From a virus, in the IMG/VR virus record IMGVR_UViG_3300015264_000052, positions 1-25,376 of that record: a stretch of DNA of 25,376 bases. The stretch is one strand, 5' to 3'. The position numbers and the translations under genes are program-made. How positions within the stretch are numbered: position 1 is the stretch's first letter; each line of letters begins with the position of its first letter. Positions 1,647-19,253 of this stretch are shown here, in pieces. The notes beneath the pieces were generated by a model. It was not told the DNA's origin. It worked only from the letters and a program-made list of their open reading frames with translations, and made no database searches.

Positions 1647-3698
1647 ATGTCTGCAGGCGATGTCCTCAACGCAAAACGAGTCCGCACGCAGTCCAACGAG
1701 CGGCTGGACACCGTAGACGCCGACGCGCTGTCTCGCGAGCCCCGGGAGCACCTGGACGCCTTCTCGCGGGCGATCGAGGCGGCCCCGCGCAACGTCGGGG
1801 CCTCGACCCCGACCGGGCTCATCTTCCAGGGGTTCGGCCTGACGCTGAACCCGACCGGGCCGACGGACGGCAAGGTGCGCGTGCAGTCCCCGCTCGGGGT
1901 CGCCTACGACTCGGACGGCCGGCTGCTGATCAAGGAGAACGGGGTCCAGTCGGATCTGGTGGTCCCGTCCGGCAACTCGCAGGTCTACGCGTACTTCTTC
2001 GAGAGCGCGTCCGACACCACCGTGCGGAGGTTCATCCCGGTCACGTCGCCGTTCACCCCTGAGGGCAGTAACACGATCCCGACGAAGCTCACCGGAGGGG
2101 TCGCCTACTACGTCCGCACCGGAGACCAGACCTCGATCGTGGCGAGCGACGTGGTCAACGGCGCGACGACTGCGCTCTGCTTCCTCGGCGTCGCCAACAA
2201 CGTCGCCGGCGCAGTCACGATGACCGGGTACAACTCGACCACCGCGCCGAACGGCGCGTTCGTCACCAACCGCCACGTCGCCGTGACGGTGCCGACCACG
2301 CTGCCGACGACGAACACGATGAACGGGTCCGTCGCGACGATGCACGGCCTGACCATCGCGGCGCTCTACATGATCGGTCAGGCGCTGTGGAAGGGGTCGC
2401 ACAACACCACTCCGACCGCGGCCAACAACTTCTTGGCCTTCACTCCTCCTGCGCGCGGCCTCGACGCGTTGTTTGACTCGACCGGAGAGTCGACCGTGAC
2501 GCCGACCACGGCGTGGCGCGACTGGGCGCAGAACCGGAGGTTCGAGGTCGACCACAACGGCTACCCGATGGGGCAGCTCTCTGTCATCGACGAGAACTGG
2601 GCGCGCGGCGGGACGCAGGCGATCGTCGTGACGCCTGCGTCGGCGGGGAAAGACGGGGTGGGCGGCGCCGTGAGCACGGTCTCCGGTCTGCGCGGGTTCG
2701 TCTTCACCGCCGGAGTCGCCGGATCCGCGTCGGTCATGCTCCCGGTACCACCTAACAGGTCGCTCCAGGTGAACGCCGCGGCGTTCACCTGGGTCAAGAC
2801 GACCGCTGCCAACGTCGTCGCCGGGACGTTGTTCGTTAACGGCTCTAGCAGGAGCACGATCACACCGCCGGGCACCGGGACCGGTACCGTGACCGTGTCG
2901 TTTCCGTCGGCCGACTTCCCGATCGAGGCCAGGACAGTGTCCCCATTTGGTGGCGGTCTGGACGGTGTCACGACGGCCACGCTGTCGATGCTGGTCTCCG
3001 GTACAGTGGCGACCACGAACGAGGAGCTCACGTCGTGCTCCTTGCAGTGCGTTGTGGACCCAGAGGGTTGGATGTGGCAGACCACCAACGGCTCCACCTC
3101 TGGTGGGTGCACGCACCAGTACAGGGACCCGGACACCAACCTCAACCACCGCGCGCTGCAGATGGTTGGTGTCGGCACTGGGTCCCAGACCGGGCAGATG
3201 ACGACTGAGGCATACGAGTGCTTCATGGACGCCAACGTCGCCTATGCGCAAGAGTGGATGTTGCGGACAGGTACGATCACGGACGGTAATAACAAGCGCT
3301 GGTTCTGGGTCGGGGTCCAGAACAACAGCGCAGGGTCGATGAACAAGTTCGTCACGATCTACAACGACTCGACGCTCGCAAACTGGCAGCTGCAGGTGAT
3401 CGGGACGACGACGGTGAACACAGACACAGGGGTCGCCATCGCTGCCAACACGGTATATAGGATGAGGCTAGAGATCCTCGGAGCGAACGTCTCGACCGCC
3501 GGAGCTGGTAGTTTTCGCATCCGCGCCTACATCAACGGTAATAAGGTCGCTGAGGTCGTCACCGCGACGCTGCCGACTGCTGACATGATCCGCCCTTTCA
3601 TCCTGTGTGGGACCACTGCTACAGGAGGGCCATATGACTTCTCGGTCGGGCGACTCCGGCGTGCGTGGAACCACGTCGTCAGCGGTGATAACCTGTAA
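1647..3698 (+). CDS. Large tail-fibre-like virion protein (683 aa)
   Basis: ATG start preceded by AGGAGGG at 1636-1642, an ideal ribosome site overlapping the end of the upstream gene. The first 60 residues are charged and partly helical, as in a virion-attachment region. The remainder is long and rich in Gly, Thr, Ser, Val and Asn, with no membrane or catalytic motif, and probably forms successive beta domains. The C-terminal 200 residues include a segment suggestive of a beta-sandwich binding module (WQLQVIGTTTVN, then FRIRAYINGNKVAEV), like the carbohydrate-binding or LamG-like ends of some fibres. Size, composition and position after the J-like gene suggest a fibre or baseplate appendage; receptor binding is inferred. 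Confidence 0.6.
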   Translation: MSAGDVLNAKRVRTQSNERLDTVDADALSREPREHLDAFSRAIEAAPRNVGASTPTGLIFQGFGLTLNPTGPTDGKVRVQSPLGVAYDSDGRLLIKENGVQSDLVVPSGNSQVYAYFFESASDTTVRRFIPVTSPFTPEGSNTIPTKLTGGVAYYVRTGDQTSIVASDVVNGATTALCFLGVANNVAGAVTMTGYNSTTAPNGAFVTNRHVAVTVPTTLPTTNTMNGSVATMHGLTIAALYMIGQALWKGSHNTTPTAANNFLAFTPPARGLDALFDSTGESTVTPTTAWRDWAQNRRFEVDHNGYPMGQLSVIDENWARGGTQAIVVTPASAGKDGVGGAVSTVSGLRGFVFTAGVAGSASVMLPVPPNRSLQVNAAAFTWVKTTAANVVAGTLFVNGSSRSTITPPGTGTGTVTVSFPSADFPIEARTVSPFGGGLDGVTTATLSMLVSGTVATTNEELTSCSLQCVVDPEGWMWQTTNGSTSGGCTHQYRDPDTNLNHRALQMVGVGTGSQTGQMTTEAYECFMDANVAYAQEWMLRTGTITDGNNKRWFWVGVQNNSAGSMNKFVTIYNDSTLANWQLQVIGTTTVNTDTGVAIAANTVYRMRLEILGANVSTAGAGSFRIRAYINGNKVAEVVTATLPTADMIRPFILCGTTATGGPYDFSVGRLRRAWNHVVSGDNL

Positions 3699-5595: not shown

Positions 5596-6458
5596 GCGTC
5601 CCGTTCACACCCATCGCCAACACCGCGACGATCAGCGGCACCGAGATCTCGCTCATCAGCGGCACCACGTCGCTCCAGACGTCGAACGTCGCGGGCAAGT
5701 TCGTGCTGGTCATCGACCTCATCACAGGTGGCATCGCGATCGGGACGAGCTACCAGGTGCGGACCGTCAGCAAGGTCAACGGCGGCGCACAGGCCGACGT
5801 CCTCAAGGCATACCCAGGAGGACTGCAGAGCGGTTACTGGATCAGCGAGCCGATCTGGCTGTACGACGGCTGGGACATGCGCATGAAGCTGTTCGCCGGA
5901 TCAGCCATCCCAGTTAGCTGGGCGATCATCGAGGACATCGGGGATGGCAACGCGCTCACCGCCGGCGCCGCCGCGATCAGCTCGATCCAGGCGGGCCTGG
6001 CTCAGTCCGCGACGGCGCTCAGCAGCGCGGTGTGGACGAACACGCTCGCCGCGATCATCAGCACGGCGCTGGACGCCACGGTCAGCTCGCGCGCGGACAA
6101 GGCCACCGACGTCGCCACCATCGAGGCGTCCCTCACGAACATCCAGTCCCGGATCCCGACGGCTCTCGACGGTTCCGGCAACATCAAGGCGGGCGTGCAG
6201 TCGCTGGTGACCGATGCGATCACGTCGATCGCCGACGCGGTGATGAACTACGCCACCGAGTCCGGCTGGGTCAACGCGGCGACGTTCATCACGATGTTTC
6301 GCTCCGCGTTCAGCATCATCGCCGGCAAGGCGAGCGGCCTGGCCATCACGACGGCCACCACCGAGCACTTCAGAAACGCGGCCGACACCAAGGACCGCGC
6401 CGTGTTCACGGTCGCCACCGACGGCACGAGGACCCCGACCACGATGGATGGTACCTGA
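5592..6458 (+). CDS. Tail-fibre-type protein with helical middle (288 aa)
   Basis: The ATG overlaps the upstream TGA (ATGA). The first 110 residues are beta-rich (IANTATISGTEISLISG). Residues about 115-225 are Ala/Ser/Ile-rich and helical, with SSAVW and SRIPTALDGSGNIKAGVQS; this W-then-IPxALDGxGNIK pattern is common in phage tail-fibre or connector proteins. The C-terminus (AADTKDRAVFTVATDGTRTP) matches a terminal element often seen on such proteins. The role is inferred from these repeated phage motifs, with no family name I can assert. It shares its last base with the next gene's start (TGATG). Confidence 0.55.
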   Translation: MSVPFTPIANTATISGTEISLISGTTSLQTSNVAGKFVLVIDLITGGIAIGTSYQVRTVSKVNGGAQADVLKAYPGGLQSGYWISEPIWLYDGWDMRMKLFAGSAIPVSWAIIEDIGDGNALTAGAAAISSIQAGLAQSATALSSAVWTNTLAAIISTALDATVSSRADKATDVATIEASLTNIQSRIPTALDGSGNIKAGVQSLVTDAITSIADAVMNYATESGWVNAATFITMFRSAFSIIAGKASGLAITTATTEHFRNAADTKDRAVFTVATDGTRTPTTMDGT

Positions 6459-7590: not shown

Positions 7591-9192
7591 ATGAATGAGG
7601 ACCGCCGGGCTACGATCACGCTGCTGAGCAACACGCGGTGCTCGGTCTCGTTCCGGCACCCCGGGCTCTCCGGCAAGGCTCGGGAGAAGGCGCGCAAGCG
7701 CGTCGTCGGCCTCCTGGACGACGCCCTCGCCATCGAGCAGAAGGGATCGCACTTCATGGCGACCGTCCAGGCAGGGCGGTGGGACGGTCGCCGGCACATG
7801 TTCCTGAAGGAGGGCTGCACCTTCCCGAAGGGGCTGGTGCCGCGCGTAAAGGACCTGCTGCGCGAGGCGGGCTACCGGGTGATGAAGACCAGAGACCGGC
7901 GGGCCACCGATCGCCGCGGCGCCGGCGAGGTGGAGGTGTCGGACGACATGCTCGCCGGGATCACGCTGCGCCCCGACCAGCTCGACGTAGTCGTGGCTGC
8001 GCTGGAGAGCGGGTGCGGCCTCCTGCACGTCGCCACCGGAGGAGGCAAGACAGCCATCGCCGCCGCCCTCATCAAGGCGCTGCGGGGCATGCGGTGCCTG
8101 TTCATCGTCCACACCAAGCAGCTGCTGAGGCAGGGGCGCGAGCAGCTGGCGAGGTTCTTGGGGACGATCGAGGAGCACGTCGGCGTCATCGGTGACGGCC
8201 GGTTCGACCCGAAACACGTTACGGTCGCGACCATGCAGAGCCTCACTCGGGCACGAGGTGACGCTCAGAAGCGCGTCATCGCGAAGTACCTCAAGACGGT
8301 CGTCTTGCTGTTCTTGGACGAGACCCACCACGCGTCCGCGAAGTCGTTCTACCGGCTCGTGCAGCGCGTCGACGCGCCGTTCCGGTTCGGCCTGTCCGGC
8401 ACGCCGTTCGGCCTCGCGGACGGCAAGGGCCTCATGGTCGAGGCCGCCTTCGGCCCGGTGGTCGCGCGCGTGACCAACGCCGAGCTGATCGACCTCGGCG
8501 TCAACGCCCGACCGACCATCCGCATGCTCGAGGTCACCGAGCCGAAGCTCGAGGACGGGCTGTCTTGGCAGGACGTGTACAAGAGCGGGGTCGTGCTGAA
8601 CGACGCCAGGAACGCGATGGTCGCCCGCGAGGTCACGGCGTTCGCGCGCAAGAAGTGGCCGACGCTCGTCCTCGTCCGCGAGCTCTGGCACGGCGACCGC
8701 ATCGCCGAGCTCCTGCACGAGGAGATGGTCCCGCACGCGTTCGTCCACGGGCAGATGCCGACCGACGAGGTCGAGCGCCAGAAGGACCGGCTGGTCGAGG
8801 GCAAGATCCTGGTGCTGATCGCGTCGCCGATCTTCGGCGAGGGTGTGGACATCCCGTCTGCACCTGGCTTCCCCGGCATCAAGGCGCTCGTCATCGCGGA
8901 CGGCGGGCAGTCGGTCGCGAACGTCTTGCAGAAGCTAGGTCGGAGCTTGCGAAAGAAGCAGGGAGACAACCGGGTCGAGGTGGTCGACTTCGCCGACCTG
9001 ACCCACAAGTGGCTTGCAGTTCATAGTCAAAATAGGCTACAGCTGTACGAAGATGAAGGTTTCAAGGTCATCACTGCCGATTCCGGGAAAGAAGACGCCG
9101 GTATTCGCTCCAAGAACGTGCGTGACTTGTCTCCAAAGGTTCGCTCCAAACTCGGGACCGCAGAAATTTTGCGTAGATTGTCGCAAGATTGA
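7591..9192 (+). CDS. uvsW: UvsW-type SF2 DNA/RNA helicase, 3' end altered by HNH insertion
   Basis: ATG directly downstream of P1 and without a Shine-Dalgarno, so translation may be leaderless. The N-terminal region (WDGRRHMF, about residue 64) resembles the small N-terminal domain of T4 UvsW. Helicase motifs are complete: Walker A ATGGGKT (148-154), DETHH (243-247), SGTP (269-272), and motif VI QKLGRSLRK (447-455). UvsW is known to unwind and remodel branched recombination and replication intermediates. The C-terminus is unusual: from residue 479 the sequence SQNRLQLYEDEGFKV has foreign, AT-richer codons, and a second GC-rich copy of this ending occurs at 9728-9784 in another frame. The last ~36 residues overlap the HNH gene and are probably not ancestral. 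Confidence 0.9.
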   Translation: MNEDRRATITLLSNTRCSVSFRHPGLSGKAREKARKRVVGLLDDALAIEQKGSHFMATVQAGRWDGRRHMFLKEGCTFPKGLVPRVKDLLREAGYRVMKTRDRRATDRRGAGEVEVSDDMLAGITLRPDQLDVVVAALESGCGLLHVATGGGKTAIAAALIKALRGMRCLFIVHTKQLLRQGREQLARFLGTIEEHVGVIGDGRFDPKHVTVATMQSLTRARGDAQKRVIAKYLKTVVLLFLDETHHASAKSFYRLVQRVDAPFRFGLSGTPFGLADGKGLMVEAAFGPVVARVTNAELIDLGVNARPTIRMLEVTEPKLEDGLSWQDVYKSGVVLNDARNAMVAREVTAFARKKWPTLVLVRELWHGDRIAELLHEEMVPHAFVHGQMPTDEVERQKDRLVEGKILVLIASPIFGEGVDIPSAPGFPGIKALVIADGGQSVANVLQKLGRSLRKKQGDNRVEVVDFADLTHKWLAVHSQNRLQLYEDEGFKVITADSGKEDAGIRSKNVRDLSPKVRSKLGTAEILRRLSQD

Positions 9193-9733
9193 ATATGGGT
9201 TGAAGGGACCAACGGAGTGTTTGGGGTGTGGTTTGATGATCATCGATCGCACTCATCGAGCAAGATACTGTCTTAAATGTAGAAAAGAGCGTACACGTCA
9301 GTTGAGGAATGAATCATTCGCTCGTGCATATGCTGATCCAAAACGAAAAAAGAAGCTCAAGTATCAGAGCCGTGAATCTCAGCGTCGTTGGATCAAGGCG
9401 CCTGGTAACCGAGAAGATTTACGGGCTCGTGAGCGTGCTCGGCACTTGAATTTGAAACTAGAAGCGATCAAGCGGTTCGGAGGAAGATGCGCATGTTGCG
9501 GTGAAACGCGTTATCAGTTCTTGTCGTTTGATCATGTTGATGGCGACGGTGCACAGCATCGTCGTGAGGCGGGTGGATTTTGGCCCGCGCGTAGCAGTTC
9601 ATTTCTTCGTTATCTGAAGAAAAATGACTGGAAGTCGAAGTACAGGATCCGCGTGTTGTGCATGAATTGCCACATCGCGGAAGATCTTTGGGGAGCCTGC
9701 CCACACCGGTTGGAACGCTGCGCGGCAAGTCAA
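9025..9733 (+). mobile_element. HNH homing element inserted at the 3' end of the helicase gene
   Basis: The segment is bounded by AGTCAA at 9025-9030 and 9728-9733, 703 bp apart. Both mark the same point in two versions of the helicase C-terminus. Upstream, helicase frame 1 runs into SQNRLQLYEDEGFKV. Downstream, another frame encodes SQERVALYESEGFEVVAE followed by TGA. Joining the two AGTCAA sites restores an uninterrupted helicase ending in GC-rich native codons. The inside is visibly poorer in G+C and encodes an HNH enzyme. The simplest reading is a homing element that brought a substitute 3' end for its host gene and displaced the original. Confidence 0.65.
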
Positions 9734-9784
9734 GAGCGGGTCGCGCTGTACGAGTCGGAGGGTTTTGAGGTCGTTGCCGAGTGA
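9053..9784 (+). CDS. HNH homing endonuclease fused at its end to the displaced helicase tail
   Basis: The frame is open from ATG 9014, but 9053 is a likelier start because the earlier part overlaps the helicase coding copy; no good ribosome site is seen for either. Two Cys-pair ribbons come first (CVTC...CVDC, then CLGC...CLKC), followed by an Arg/Lys-rich DNA-binding linker. The HNH core follows: CACCGETRYQFLSFDHVDGD, then HRRE, then VLCMNCHIAEDLWGACPH, with CxxC pairs and the catalytic DH. This is the classic phage HNH layout. The last ~19 residues (SQERVALYESEGFEVVAE) match the helicase C-terminus, not an endonuclease. Codon use is AT-richer than all neighbours until that tail, a sign of transfer. 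Confidence 0.85.
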   Translation: MKVSRSSLPIPGKKTPVFAPRTCVTCLQRFAPNSGPQKFCVDCRKIEYGLKGPTECLGCGLMIIDRTHRARYCLKCRKERTRQLRNESFARAYADPKRKKKLKYQSRESQRRWIKAPGNREDLRARERARHLNLKLEAIKRFGGRCACCGETRYQFLSFDHVDGDGAQHRREAGGFWPARSSSFLRYLKKNDWKSKYRIRVLCMNCHIAEDLWGACPHRLERCAASQERVALYESEGFEVVAE

Positions 9785-9804
9785 GTTCCGGCGCATCACT
9801 CGGT

Positions 9805-9834
9805 TGTGGATAATGCTGTGGATCTTGTGGACAA
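9805..9834 (-). promoter_or_regulatory. Three adjacent DnaA-box-like 9-mers
   Basis: Read on the minus strand they are TTGTCCACA, AGATCCACA and TTATCCACA, starting 9 and 12 nt apart. The first and third match the known DnaA-box consensus forms exactly; the middle one deviates in its first three bases. Confidence 0.55.
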
Positions 9835-9874
9835 ACCGACGAGCGGAACGCGACCTGCCTCCACTGTAAGTGTG

Positions 9875-9894
9875 GATGCTGGCATCCCAGCATC
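9875..9894 (+). other. Perfect 8-bp stem-loop
   Basis: GATGCTGG (9875-9882), loop CATC, CCAGCATC (9887-9894). The stem is perfect and partly overlaps the fourth DnaA-like 9-mer. No T-run follows (TTGACG instead), so it does not look like an intrinsic terminator. It may be an origin structure or a protein-binding site. Confidence 0.6.
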
Positions 9895-9924
9895 TTGACG
9901 TCAGCGCCCAGCGCGCGGTACTGA
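9895..9924 (+). promoter_or_regulatory. Possible promoter P1b before the 9931 gene
   Basis: -35 TTGACG (9895-9900), 18-bp spacer, -10-like TACTGA (9919-9924), with the GTG start 6 nt further on. The -35 overlaps the 8-bp palindrome TGACGTCA (9896-9903). The -10 is poor, and the GTG has no Shine-Dalgarno, so a leaderless message is possible. Confidence 0.35.
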
Positions 9925-9930
9925 CTCAGT

Positions 9931-10515
9931 GTGCATCGTGCGCCCAAGACACAGATCGGCGGACGGGGTCGCGGGAAGACGAGGAAGGTCGAGGTCGCCG
10001 AAGAGCTCTGCGTCCTCTACCACGAGGCGGTGCGGGCCGAGGTCGCGACCCTGACCAAGGGAGGTCACCGCATGCCGTCGCAGACGCTGGACGACGTCGA
10101 CGAGTCGGACCGCAGCTGGTTCTTGAAGGCCGCGGTCGCGTGCCTCGAGCTCGAGGCCGACGCGCGGGAGTTCATCGTGGCGCAGTTCGCGGTCTGGCGA
10201 GCGGCCAGCACCTACTACCAGAAGCTCCTCCTGCCGCAACCGCACCACCTCGGCAAGCTCGGCGCGCGCGTGCGCTACCTGCAGCACAAGGTGGTCGAGG
10301 AGACCCGGAAGTCGAGGGTCGTCACGCTCGACGCTCAGGAGGACCGCAAGCGGTTCTACGTTGAGGAGCGGCAGCTCAAGGGGCTCGCGCGGGAGCTGCG
10401 CCTGGACCAGGCCGACGTCCTGGCCGGCCTGCCGGAACGGTTCTCGCGCGCGTTCCTCGAGCACAAGGGAGCGTGGGCCGTCGTGAAGGACGTCTGGGAA
10501 GAGAGGGCCCGGTGA
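9931..10515 (+). CDS. Uncharacterised helical protein heading the replication operon (194 aa)
   Basis: GTG start; no better start lies upstream and no Shine-Dalgarno is visible. The first 20 residues are basic (IGGRGRGKTRK). The rest is largely helical and charged, with a possible coiled region at about 105-150 (ARVRYLQHKVVEETRKSRVV) and no Cys pairs or membrane segments. It is immediately followed by the glycosylase-like gene with a GTGA overlap, so it is translated with DNA-metabolism proteins. I do not recognise a family. Position next to the candidate origin makes a DNA-binding role conceivable, but nothing in the sequence proves it. Confidence 0.6.
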   Translation: MHRAPKTQIGGRGRGKTRKVEVAEELCVLYHEAVRAEVATLTKGGHRMPSQTLDDVDESDRSWFLKAAVACLELEADAREFIVAQFAVWRAASTYYQKLLLPQPHHLGKLGARVRYLQHKVVEETRKSRVVTLDAQEDRKRFYVEERQLKGLARELRLDQADVLAGLPERFSRAFLEHKGAWAVVKDVWEERAR

Positions 10516-15324: not shown

Positions 15325-15708
15325 ATGGCAAAGAGTCTGTTCGTTGGAACCGTACCGGCGACCATCAGCGTGATCGTGGAGGCGAAGGACGAGGAGTCGG
15401 CGTCCGAGGCGATCAAGGTCGCCGTCCGGGCTGCGCTCGGGTCGACCCTCGGCGTCATCAGCATCATCGGTGAACCCAAGGTCGCGTCGATGCCAATCGC
15501 CGGCAAGAAGGCGAAGGTCGATGACAAGGAGGAAGAGGACGACGAGGAGGAGGAAGAGGACGACGAGGAGGAGGAAGAGGACGACGAGGAGGAGGAAGAG
15601 GACGACGAGGAGGAGGAAGAGGAGGAGAAACCTGCTCCGAAGAAGACCGACAAGAAGCCGGTCAAGGACGACGGCAAGAAGAAGATCAAGATCAAACTGA
15701 AAGGATAA
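15325..15708 (+). CDS. Acidic-repeat protein (127 aa)
   Basis: ATG start after a purine-rich leader (AGAAGAGAGAGAAG) that can act as the ribosome site. Residues 1-57 look like a small alpha/beta domain (SLFVGTVPATISVIVEAKDE). Residues 66-102 are almost only Asp and Glu, built from four exact DDEEEEE units. The last 25 residues are very Lys-rich (KKIKIKLKG). Such polyacidic stretches next to basic tails occur in histone chaperones and DNA mimics, but this does not establish a function. The gene lies 8 nt before the polymerase start. Confidence 0.7.
   Translation: MAKSLFVGTVPATISVIVEAKDEESASEAIKVAVRAALGSTLGVISIIGEPKVASMPIAGKKAKVDDKEEEDDEEEEEDDEEEEEDDEEEEEDDEEEEEEEKPAPKKTDKKPVKDDGKKKIKIKLKG
15538..15621 (+). 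repeat. Four perfect 21-bp tandem repeats encoding DDEEEEE
   Basis: Units begin at 15538, 15559, 15580 and 15601 and are identical at every base, including the single GAA among GAG codons. A partial degenerate unit flanks each side. The period is a multiple of three, so copy-number change would keep the frame. Confidence 0.95.
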
Positions 15709-15716
15709 CTAAGAAG

Positions 15717-18700
15717 ATGAGCGACCGCGCGCCCGTACAGTTCGCTGAGACGCCGAAGCAAGCTCGGCGTTTCATGGATGAGCTTTACCGAGAGGCATAC
15801 CTCCCGGGGAAGATCACCGCGGTCGACACCGAGTTCGTCCCGATCTCGAACGAGCCGGTCCTGCTGTCCTACTCGTGGGGCCGCGGGGTCCGGCGCGTCG
15901 TCCGCTCCGAGCTGGTCAAGGACCACTTCGGCGACTGGCTGGTCGACCCTCAGACCAAGCTCGCCTACCAGAACTACAAGGCGGATGTCGAGACGATGGA
16001 GAGGCTCGGCATCCCGCCGACCGAGCTCATCCACAGCTTCTACATCGACACGATGGTCACCGGGGTGCTCCGCGACGAGACCCTGATGCAGCATGGGCTC
16101 AAGGCGCAGATGTTCCACTTCTTGAAGTGGTTTCGCCGCGAGTACGGGCAGCTGTTCTGCTATGTACCACCCGGCAAGAAGAAGGCGATCGTCATGGACC
16201 CGAGGCAGGTCATGGATGGTCTGCCTGACGACGCGCTCACCGACGCGGTGACCAAGTGGGGTGGAGCGAAGGGAGGACACAAGGTCGGCCCGCGGAGCGC
16301 TGAGCAGTGGCGCCAGATGATGATCGACTATGCCGGCGACGACGCCGAGGGGACCCAGATCCTCGCGGTCGACCACCGCAGGTACCTCAGGAAGACCGAC
16401 TACTGGGACAAGTATGTCGACGTCGACCGAGTGTTCACGAGTACCCTGATGCAGTGTGGGGTAAGCGGGGCGTTCCTCGACCAGCCGGTCCTGCGCAAGA
16501 TCCTGCGCAAGCAGGACATCCGCATCATGCGCGCCGAGCATTGTTTCCGCGCCGCGGCGGGAGACCCAAAGCTCAAGCTGCGCTCTCGCCCTCAGATGAA
16601 GAAGCTGTTGTTCGACGAGTGGGGTTGGCCGGAGCACCCGACGATCGAGACCGACAGCGGCGGAGTCTCGATGGACGGGGAGGTCCTCACCTGGTGGTTG
16701 AACGAGCACAAGCTCGCGATGGCAGGAGTTAAGCTCGCGTTCAACAACGCGGCTACCATGAAGGGTACGTTCCTTGAAGGACTTCTTTCAGGAGTAAGTG
16801 ATGATGGACGTCTGCGAAGTGATCTGAATCAGATCGGTGCGAAGACATCTGGAAGAATTAGTTCACGTAAGTTTGAGAAGTTGATCGAGATCACTAAGAC
16901 ACTCAAGAATGGAGAAGTAAGGACGCAAGTCAAGAAGAAGAAGGTCGGCGCCAACCTTCAGAATATAATCGCTCGGAAGGAGAAGGACCCCGATGGGGTC
17001 CGCGGTGCGTTCCGGGCGCCACAACTTGGAGAGGTCACCGCATGGGGTGTACCGGCTACCGAGTCACACAAGCTGATCGTCGCGGATTACTCAGGGTTCC
17101 ACCTCGTGCTTGTCATCCACTTCACAGCGAAGCTGACCAAGAAGTCGGCAATGCTGGAGATCATGCGGAAGTACAAGACGCCGAGCGCGGTGCACGTGTA
17201 CACGACGATTCAGATGTTCAAGCACACGGCTCCACACAGATGTGACTCGGACTCGTACTCGTGCAAGGACAAGAAGACCGGCGAGTGGAAGAAGTTCCAC
17301 GGCGAGAACAAGGTGTACTCCTTGAGCGAGTTCACCATGGATGACTGGAAGCTAGTCAAGCCGCTCTTCCCGGACCAATATACCTATAGTAAAAACTGCG
17401 TCACCGGCGAGACGATGATCCTCACTGATCATGGATACAAGAGGATTGACGAGCTGTGCGTCGGCGCTCCTCTTGGTCGCTCGAAGCCGGCGACACCCAT
17501 CCGGATCGTAACGCGGGACGGGATTCGCGACGTCGCGGACGTCTACCGGGGTGGCAAGCAGCCGGTGAAGAAGCTGACGACTGAGCTCGGGTTCGCAGTG
17601 CGCGCGAACGACTCACATGACATGCCGGTGGTGCGCGGAGGTAAGATCGAGATGGTGAAGGTCGGCGACATGGTGGTCGGAGACATCTGCGTGATTAAGT
17701 TCGGCAGCAACACCCACGGGCGGGTAACTCAGATTCCAGCGATGGCGCAGGGAGGCATGACGAGCTACAAGCCGCTCGACCTTCCTCGTGAGCTTACGCC
17801 GGAGGTTGCCAGGTTGCTCGGGTACTATGTGTCGGAGGGTTTCTCGATGAAGTCAAACACGATGTACATCACATCGTTCGGCTTCGGTTATCAGGACGAT
17901 GACATGGTGCTCGACGTCGAGCGGTGCTTGCGATTGGTGGCTGGTTCCCGTCTCAAGCAGCACGATGGTGCGAAAGCGCGCAGGTACTACATCACCAGCA
18001 AGGACCTCTACGAGTGGTGGCGGTTCCTCGGATGTGGCACGTCATCGGCGGACAAGCAGATCCCGCCCTGCGTGCTCGGTGCACCATGGCCAGTCAAGCG
18101 GGAATTCTTGCGCGCATACTTTGCTGGAGACGGAAGCATCTGCGACGGTGTCATCAAGGCAACGAGCAAGTCAGAGCTTCTCATTAGGCAGATCCAAGGC
18201 GAGTTGATCAACATCGGCATCGCGTGCTCTGTGTTCTCTGGTGAAGTTGGTGAATACGGGATTTATTGGTCGATCCAGATATCGAGCAGCAGCTACGTCA
18301 AGAGGTTCTCCGAGTACATTGGATTTTCCTGTAAGCGCAAGCAGGATCTGGCGGAGCGGGTGGTGATCGCTAACCCGCGTTCCACACTGGTCATCGAAGG
18401 GTTCGACGTCGAGTACGAGCTGATCCAGAAGAAACTGTTTGGTGGTGTGAGGAGTCGGATGTCACAGGTGACCCGCGGTACGTGCAGGCTCGGTGAAGTC
18501 GTGGTTCAAAAAATCGACCCTGAAGCACTCGTTGGGACCGAGATCGAGAAGATGCTCAACGATGGGTTGTGGACGGTTCGCGTCACGTCGATCGAGCCTG
18601 ATGGTGATGCAGAGGTTTTTGACCTCTATGAGCCAGTTCATAAGATGATGGTTGCTAGCGGTCTTCTTGTAGGTGACACCAACTTTGCCCTTATCTTCAT

Positions 18701-19253
18701 GGGATCTCCTTGGACGCTGGCATACAACACAGGACGAGATGCTAACGACGAGGAACAGCTCGATGAGTGCAAACGACACTATGATGACTGGTACGAGCTG
18801 TACCCGGAGATCAAGCAGTACCAAAACTGGGCAGTCGATCACGGGTATGAGCATGGTTGGGTTCCGACCATCGGCGGCAGGCGTGGCCACGTCCGTAAGA
18901 TGCTCGAGGGGTGCGATCGAGACGGCAGGTATATCCAAGACGACGACAAGCGGAAGAAGATGATTAAGCACGGTGAGCGTGTGTGCACGAATACCGTCGC
19001 TCAAGGATCCGAGGCTGACATCGTGAAGATGGCGCTCAACCTCATCCGCCTATCGCCGAAGATGATCGAGTTCCGTTGTGCACCGCTGTTTCCTGTCCAC
19101 GACGAGATCGTGAGCGAGGGTCCCGAGCGGACCTCCGTCGCCAGCCTCGAAGAGCAGATCCGCCTGATGAAGGAGCCGTACAAGGACGAGATGGAGGTCG
19201 AGCTAGCAGTGGAGGGTGGAATCGGGGACAACTGGATTAGTGGCAAACCGTAG
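15717..19253 (+). CDS. polA: Family-A DNA polymerase with 3'-5' exonuclease, interrupted by an intein
   Basis: The 1178-residue frame gives a 751-residue polymerase after removal of a 427-residue intein. The exonuclease motifs are intact: VDTEF (Asp37, Glu39), N86-x3-D90 in YQNYKAD, and Y205-x3-D209 in YAGDD. No 5'-3' exonuclease domain is present. The polymerase part has DGRLRSDLNQIGAKTSGRISS, motif A ADYSGFHLVL (Asp457), the O helix split by the intein (YSKN / TNFALIF) and motif C VHDEIV (Asp1129). Compared with E. coli Pol I, Glu710 is His462, Arg754 is Tyr555, Lys758 and Phe762 are kept, and Tyr766 is Phe. Both catalytic Asp residues remain, so activity is plausible. It is very likely the phage replicase. 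Confidence 0.92.
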   Translation: MSDRAPVQFAETPKQARRFMDELYREAYLPGKITAVDTEFVPISNEPVLLSYSWGRGVRRVVRSELVKDHFGDWLVDPQTKLAYQNYKADVETMERLGIPPTELIHSFYIDTMVTGVLRDETLMQHGLKAQMFHFLKWFRREYGQLFCYVPPGKKKAIVMDPRQVMDGLPDDALTDAVTKWGGAKGGHKVGPRSAEQWRQMMIDYAGDDAEGTQILAVDHRRYLRKTDYWDKYVDVDRVFTSTLMQCGVSGAFLDQPVLRKILRKQDIRIMRAEHCFRAAAGDPKLKLRSRPQMKKLLFDEWGWPEHPTIETDSGGVSMDGEVLTWWLNEHKLAMAGVKLAFNNAATMKGTFLEGLLSGVSDDGRLRSDLNQIGAKTSGRISSRKFEKLIEITKTLKNGEVRTQVKKKKVGANLQNIIARKEKDPDGVRGAFRAPQLGEVTAWGVPATESHKLIVADYSGFHLVLVIHFTAKLTKKSAMLEIMRKYKTPSAVHVYTTIQMFKHTAPHRCDSDSYSCKDKKTGEWKKFHGENKVYSLSEFTMDDWKLVKPLFPDQYTYSKNCVTGETMILTDHGYKRIDELCVGAPLGRSKPATPIRIVTRDGIRDVADVYRGGKQPVKKLTTELGFAVRANDSHDMPVVRGGKIEMVKVGDMVVGDICVIKFGSNTHGRVTQIPAMAQGGMTSYKPLDLPRELTPEVARLLGYYVSEGFSMKSNTMYITSFGFGYQDDDMVLDVERCLRLVAGSRLKQHDGAKARRYYITSKDLYEWWRFLGCGTSSADKQIPPCVLGAPWPVKREFLRAYFAGDGSICDGVIKATSKSELLIRQIQGELINIGIACSVFSGEVGEYGIYWSIQISSSSYVKRFSEYIGFSCKRKQDLAERVVIANPRSTLVIEGFDVEYELIQKKLFGGVRSRMSQVTRGTCRLGEVVVQKIDPEALVGTEIEKMLNDGLWTVRVTSIEPDGDAEVFDLYEPVHKMMVASGLLVGDTNFALIFMGSPWTLAYNTGRDANDEEQLDECKRHYDDWYELYPEIKQYQNWAVDHGYEHGWVPTIGGRRGHVRKMLEGCDRDGRYIQDDDKRKKMIKHGERVCTNTVAQGSEADIVKMALNLIRLSPKMIEFRCAPLFPVHDEIVSEGPERTSVASLEEQIRLMKEPYKDEMEVELAVEGGIGDNWISGKP
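17397..18677 (+). mobile_element. LAGLIDADG-bearing intein in the polymerase O helix (427 aa)
   Basis: It starts at Cys561 (CVTGETMILTDHGYKRIDEL, the N-terminal splicing block A). Block B appears as ANDSHDMPV, with Asn where Thr is usual in TxxH. Two LAGLIDADG helices are present: LLGYYVSEGFS near residue 700 and FLRAYFAGDGSI near 797. The C-terminal blocks are VFDLYEPVHKMMVASGLLV and then GD, followed by Thr as the +1 residue. Most inteins end in His-Asn, so both terminal residues here are unusual. The insertion lies between Lys758- and Phe762-equivalent positions in the most conserved polymerase helix, a typical intein site. Confidence 0.9.

Follow-up and report, generated by a model that had tools for sequence, protein, structure and literature searches.

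A gene for a putative HNH endonuclease located close to where a phage helicase gene ends is, probably, a free-standing homing element that travelled together with a replacement 3' end for the gene that it targets, here the helicase. The sequence analyzed (referred to below as the window) is a stretch of viral DNA of 25,376 nucleotides (IMG/VR record IMGVR_UViG_3300015264_000052, positions 1 to 25,376), and the features of the locus are collected in Table 1.

The helicase locus and its HNH gene

The helicase ORF matched the Pfam families ResIII (2.2e-22) and Helicase_C (2.2e-8) and the DNA helicase family PHROG 16 (2.4e-79), with a match to UvsW_N (5.7e-4) below the cut-off. Its native body extends up to about position 9012 and is followed by a foreign ending and a stop at 9190-9192. 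Both junctions of the inserted block were also found in a second assembly (L001), with one mismatch in 11.6 kb, at 6038 and outside the locus. A third assembly (L007) was identical over 5.5 kb and, as it starts at 9268, covers the right junction only. Upstream of the junction, at 8935-8964, there is a short divergent stretch (KLGRSLRKKQG, where the relatives have GRGLR) that is possibly a second gene conversion patch.

The nuclease ORF matched the HNH endonuclease family PHROG 2255 (8.5e-8), while its protein reached none of the Pfam HNH models, and no fold reached significance in a structure search with the HNH model (the best in the PDB was an HNH nicking enzyme, with an E value of 0.38). 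In an alignment of 20 sequences, the motifs GG-C-CCGE, DH, C-N-C, and CPH were conserved between this protein and its 19 relatives. The position of its start is unsure because no convincing ribosome-binding site precedes the ATG at 9053. Most of the HNH relatives end within about 20 residues past the CPH motif, whereas the window protein goes on into a helicase ending, and this tail is therefore considered an addition. AlphaFold2 predicted a helix and a strand for the 18 helicase-derived residues (pLDDT of about 77 to 87), so that the tail may be structured. Given the catalytic motif and the absence of the gene from the same site in related genomes, we classify the ORF as a free-standing HNH homing endonuclease, with cutting and homing as putative activities.

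Table 1 Features of the helicase-HNH locus (window coordinates)
Feature	Position	Strand	Basis
UvsW/ResIII-like SF2 helicase ORF (host gene, protein P0001)	7591..9192	+	Pfam, PHROG
Putatively donor-derived helicase ending: CTT GCA GTT CAT, then SQNRLQLYEDEGFKV (9025-9069)	9013..9069	+	Drop in third-position GC, similarity to native ending
Inserted block, 703 bp, relative to uninserted relatives	9025..9727	+	Joined-flank alignment to L015
40-codon continuation of the helicase ORF, out of frame, across the HNH 5' region	9070..9189	+	No counterpart in relatives
ORF of the putative HNH homing endonuclease; frame open from TTG 9014, first ATG 9053	9053..9784	+	PHROG 2255, motifs
Two CxxC...CxxC zinc-ribbon motifs, HNH N terminus	9119..9280	+	Sequence; similar Cys pairs in several relatives
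HNH catalytic region (GGRCACCGE ... FDH ... VLCMNC ... CPH)	9479..9706	+	Alignment
Displaced native helicase 3' end as in-frame HNH tail, SQERVALYESEGFEVVAE and stop	9728..9784	+	Identity to L002 and L015

Two endings for one helicase gene

As an earlier note on this sequence had claimed, the ending of the helicase is present twice. The left copy starts with AGTCAA at 9025 and is read in the helicase frame (SQNRLQLYEDEGFKV); the right copy, starting with AGTCAA at 9728, is read in the HNH frame and closes the nuclease (SQERVALYESEGFEVVAE and stop), the spacing between both being exactly 703 nt. The two 15-residue segments share 10 of 15 residues and 31 of 45 nt (BLOSUM62 score of 52), while the next-best 15-mer in the six frames of the insert scored 14, and 200 codon-shuffled inserts gave a maximum of 30 (mean of 13.3, standard deviation of 3.8). 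The similarity of the two endings is thus far beyond chance. The hexamer AGTCAA does, as stated in the same note, correspond to the same codons in both copies, but it is not diagnostic of insertion; it represents conserved Ser-Gln codons that are also found in L004 and in the uninserted relatives L002, L020, and L021, and we have rejected its interpretation as a target-site duplication or insertion scar.

The composition of the left copy is foreign to the gene that contains it. In the helicase body, 94% of third codon positions are G or C. This share falls abruptly at the codon CTT at 9013 and is down to 4 of 10 codons both in 9001-9030 and in 9031-9060. The insert as a whole has a GC content of 50%, versus 68% in the helicase body.

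Comparison with uninserted relatives

The nuclease gene was absent from each of five related contigs (L002, L015, L020, L021, and L022) that cover the helicase 3' end. The earlier note had suggested asking whether such relatives end like the downstream copy, and they do: the helicases of L002/L003, L015, L020, L021, and L022, 68 to 76% identical to P0001, end directly in HSQERLALYESEGFQV-type sequence. When the window flanks 8797-9024 and 9728-10130 were joined and compared to L015, the closest relative, the alignment comprised 661 columns with 487 identities and without any gap at or within 60 nt of the junction, while the actual window, insert included, could be aligned to L015 only piecewise. 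Alignments of the joined flanks to L002, L020, and L021 also span the junction, but with small gaps at or within 60 nt of it. Window DNA is collinear with L015 and L002 from 9717-9720 onward, and the right junction was placed directly in front of AGTCAA, since the base to its left does not agree with the CAC of L002, L015, and L004.

The right copy, over 45 nt, is identical at 37 positions to L002, at 37 to L015, and at 34 to L020, and residues 238-255 of the HNH protein match the helicase ending of L015 at 78%. The left copy has 30 to 31 identities out of 45 to every relative. These alignments indicate that the right copy is the native one, fused in frame to the nuclease, and that the left copy is foreign and AT-rich like the insert, both of which had been anticipated in the earlier note. 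Since the left copy is equally distant from all relatives, its source would lie in a lineage outside the sampled clade, although with a length of 45 nt it is too short to be placed in a tree. A few codons hinted at a phage similar to L020 or L021 as the donor, but we rejected this candidate, given that equal distance. No donor phage was found in a search of viral and genome contigs. The locus has, in summary, a foreign C terminus in phase with the host gene and upstream of the nuclease, and a native C terminus, closest to the relatives of the host, displaced downstream.

The presence of two homologous endings flanking an HNH gene could also be explained if the helicase 3' end was duplicated in tandem inside the phage, the HNH gene landed between the copies, and the left one drifted afterwards. 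If the left copy were such a duplicate, its closest match should be the right copy, with which it shares only 31 of 45 nt; it is also AT-rich like the whole insert and no closer to any one relative (30 to 31 of 45 nt), while the right copy is near L002 and L015. We consider this origin improbable.

Probable functionality of the replacement ending

Conservation of the helicase ending extends to all relatives and as far as a helicase of only 25% identity (L023, ending in KQNNDRLGLYMKKGWEIV), and the residues that are invariant down to this distant protein (R, L, Y, and G) are kept in the left copy. The best helicase matches among annotated phages align up to query residue 493, which is the last residue of the left copy. 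In the helicase model, the final helix and strand are made up by the left copy, with disorder in the 37 residues that follow (the mean pLDDT of 67.5, obtained with eight sequences, makes the model indicative only). Sequence conservation and the model both point to the left copy as a likely functional ending of the helicase. The 40 codons that follow it before the stop, with pLDDT values of about 27 to 33, are probably meaningless coding.

It could be argued that the insertion broke the helicase gene, that its C terminus is dispensable, and that the similarity on the left is neutral debris, as about 40 out-of-frame codons with predicted disorder come after the left copy. However, all relatives and the distant helicase share the conserved ending motif, and the left copy has kept both the frame and the invariant residues, making a broken gene an improbable outcome.

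A self-splicing intron with the HNH gene inside, in which the mature helicase would use the downstream native ending, was the other reading that we weighed. Cutting out exactly 703 nt does restore the helicase frame with the native ending, and HNH genes are common in phage introns. Against this, no group I or group II intron family was matched in an Rfam search of the insert, which folds no better than its shuffled versions (z of -0.28), and the group I rule of a U before the 5' splice site and a G at the intron end is not obeyed at any offset allowed by the AGTCAA ambiguity. Besides, an intron has no reason to begin with a diverged in-frame copy of its downstream exon. As judged from these sequence features, an intron is very unlikely. 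An intein was excluded, as the insert is of 703 nt, the frame changes, and there is a stop at 9190-9192.

A proposed model of one-sided homing

The interpretation of the earlier note, in which an insertion carried in a paralogous 3' end, kept the host gene alive, and captured the displaced end as the tail of the nuclease, appears largely right, supported by the relatives and by the polarity of the two copies. We refine it with regard to the origin of the sequence, which would come from a donor, and to the repair, homologous on the left and non-homologous on the right. The nuclease would have been carried by a related, more AT-rich phage, beside the helicase gene of that phage. During a co-infection, the helicase gene of the recipient would have been cut at or near CAC^AGTCAA, and donor DNA would have been copied in by repair from the side with helicase homology, leaving a seamless left junction and a co-conversion tract that reaches back to about 9013. 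Past the nuclease gene there would be no homology, and the new strand would have been joined to the broken right end of the recipient by a non-homologous event (one-sided homing). The outcome would be a helicase that is complete without splicing, a destroyed target (the left copy diverged and the right copy interrupted), and the old helicase ending left as an 18-residue tail on the nuclease. The origin may also have been recombinational, without a cut by the nuclease itself.

In the sister phage L004/L005, an unrelated HNH_3 gene is found directly after the equivalent helicase gene, and in T4, SegE targets uvsW (PMC2988022); together they make the end of this helicase gene a plausible homing target. 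The start of the HNH_3 gene (L004:6461-6988, also in L005) overlaps the helicase stop (TGATGAG), and there is no duplicated ending there.

Comparison with known mobile elements

Mobile DNA that provides the gene it enters with an alternative 3' end is known from the element e14 and phage 21 at Escherichia coli icd, where integration takes place by integrase-mediated site-specific recombination, unlike homing. The closest system is that of the fungal mitochondrial mobile ORFs with duplicated C termini, described in atp6 of Allomyces macrogynus and in atp6, atp9, cox2, and nad3 of Glomus sp. (PMC3630166), a precedent that the earlier note had pointed to. As in the window, an endonuclease gene is located shortly before a conserved gene ends, a foreign C terminus is in phase, and the native C terminus, displaced downstream, clusters with the relatives of the host. 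The identity of the copies is low in both (63.5% at the nucleotide level in fungal atp6, 69% over 45 nt in the window) (PMC3630166). However, the fungal nucleases are of the LAGLIDADG or GIY-YIG type and act in mitochondria, while that of the window is an HNH protein in a phage; for the fungal hybrids, mRNA has been shown, and, according to that paper, mobility for the earlier cases (PMC3630166). The fusion of the displaced native end in frame to the nuclease is also a feature of the window that differs from the fungal mobile ORFs. The window element would thus work like this family without being a member of it, as the family is defined by mitochondrial LAGLIDADG or GIY-YIG nucleases.

Among phages, co-conversion of flanks and targeting of neighboring genes by homing endonucleases are established (PMC2988022). 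The T4 seg and mob genes, including segE near uvsW, resemble the window in that the nuclease lies beside its target, the ORF overlaps the upstream gene, and, in T4, flanking markers are co-converted, but no second copy of the end of the target gene has been described for them (PMC2988022). The HNH gene mobE is within the conserved coding sequence of nrdA in phage Aeh1, as the HNH gene is here, but nrdA was split into two working polypeptides (PMC2988022), whereas the window helicase would be kept whole by the replacement end. In mycobacteriophage Omega, insertion of the HNH gene 51 also changed the 3' end of its neighbor, giving lysin A a new one, for which the authors propose faulty repair or a distant donor; unlike in the window, 35 bp of the target were lost, and neither a retained duplicate nor a paralogous ending was described (PMC3706429). 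We found no description of a phage case with a retained duplicate and a replacement end in the open-access PubMed Central literature, in agreement with the statement of the earlier note that no phage case is well described, and lysin A of Omega is the nearest (PMC3706429).

Survey of other phage HNH loci

We searched 207 distinct HNH loci of two families for similarity between the flanks of each nuclease ORF. Similarity of at least 30 bits within the same locus was found in 6 loci, versus 0.14 expected from comparisons across loci. Control positions shifted by 1 to 1.5 kb in the same loci gave 1 to 8 raw matches, which upon inspection came chiefly from proteins with repeats, from HNH or related genes in tandem, and from low-complexity sequence. 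Because these raw counts are similar to those at the nuclease, the five loci besides the window are regarded as candidates only, and the survey not as statistical proof.

The five (L130, L134, L152, L066, and L222) have a short duplicated end of a neighboring gene tight against the nuclease ORF. At L130:2360-3048, a candidate for a 3' end, a small gene ends in ARWEGEKQTLGMAMHLPIGEEP and a stop before the HNH gene and in ARWENDTQTLARVLHLEIGSDL and a stop after it. At L134:2462-3000, a 5' end candidate, the HNH protein starts with MSQRVYIQLGKAG and the next gene with MSNQRIYIQLGKAG; over the 11-codon stretch that runs from QR to AG, 8 codons have synonymous differences only and one has a Val/Ile change. 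In this locus, the start of the host gene seems to have been copied and put to use by the nuclease. At L152:2168-3000, an HNH_3 protein starts with VKLRPYQKECVTKALGIMRDGEGF, the SNF2/ResIII helicase downstream starts with MKLRPYQEEAVAKALSVMRDGGGF, and there is a third copy upstream. With three successive copies of an SF2 helicase gene start around the HNH_3 gene, this 5' end candidate looks as if insertion had taken place several times; a small membrane peptide is also repeated upstream. At L066:2067-2830, the first residues of a PTH2-like (peptidyl-tRNA hydrolase) gene are duplicated across an antisense HNH gene, and at L222:2375-3020, the overlap between a terminase-like gene (33% to a terminase large subunit) and the preceding gene is duplicated around an HNH_3 gene, with about 82% DNA identity over 49 bp. 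The L222 repeat contains an inverted CACACTGT...ACAGTGTG. No uninserted relatives were found for L134 and L130, and for L152, L222, and L066, only distant ones were found among annotated phages.

Other survey matches were rejected: L189 for a repeated zinc domain, L065 for tandem HNH genes, L089, L092, L181, and L128 for their composition, and L088 for repeated promoter-like TTGACA...TATACT sequences. In L088, the 67-nt repeat with both boxes lies on either side of the HNH gene (1954-2020 and 3185-3250) and is probably a repeated phage promoter.

We would give even chances to a generalization in which replacement gene ends, 3' or 5', are a recurrent cargo of phage HNH elements and let them occupy conserved coding sequence without splicing, in many cases with the displaced or duplicated end joined to the nuclease.

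Implications

How a homing endonuclease can reside inside an essential gene is explained in textbooks by introns and inteins. The window contains a second homing element, an intein in the DNA polymerase A ORF (15717-19253), which is interrupted by an in-frame segment starting with NCVTGETMILTDHGYKRIDELCVG and carrying a LAGLIDADG_3 domain (E value of 1.6e-10). Just before the polymerase gene, a small ORF (15325-15708) has a long acidic, low-complexity stretch rich in D/E.

The helicase locus would represent another answer in phages, which is to bring along a working replacement for the end of the gene. It illustrates how a nuclease can gain new parts from displaced fragments of genes, and it would be an experimentally tractable counterpart of the fungal mitochondrial elements. 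Replacement of gene ends driven by endonucleases is thus a testable source of the mosaicism found within genes in phage genomes.
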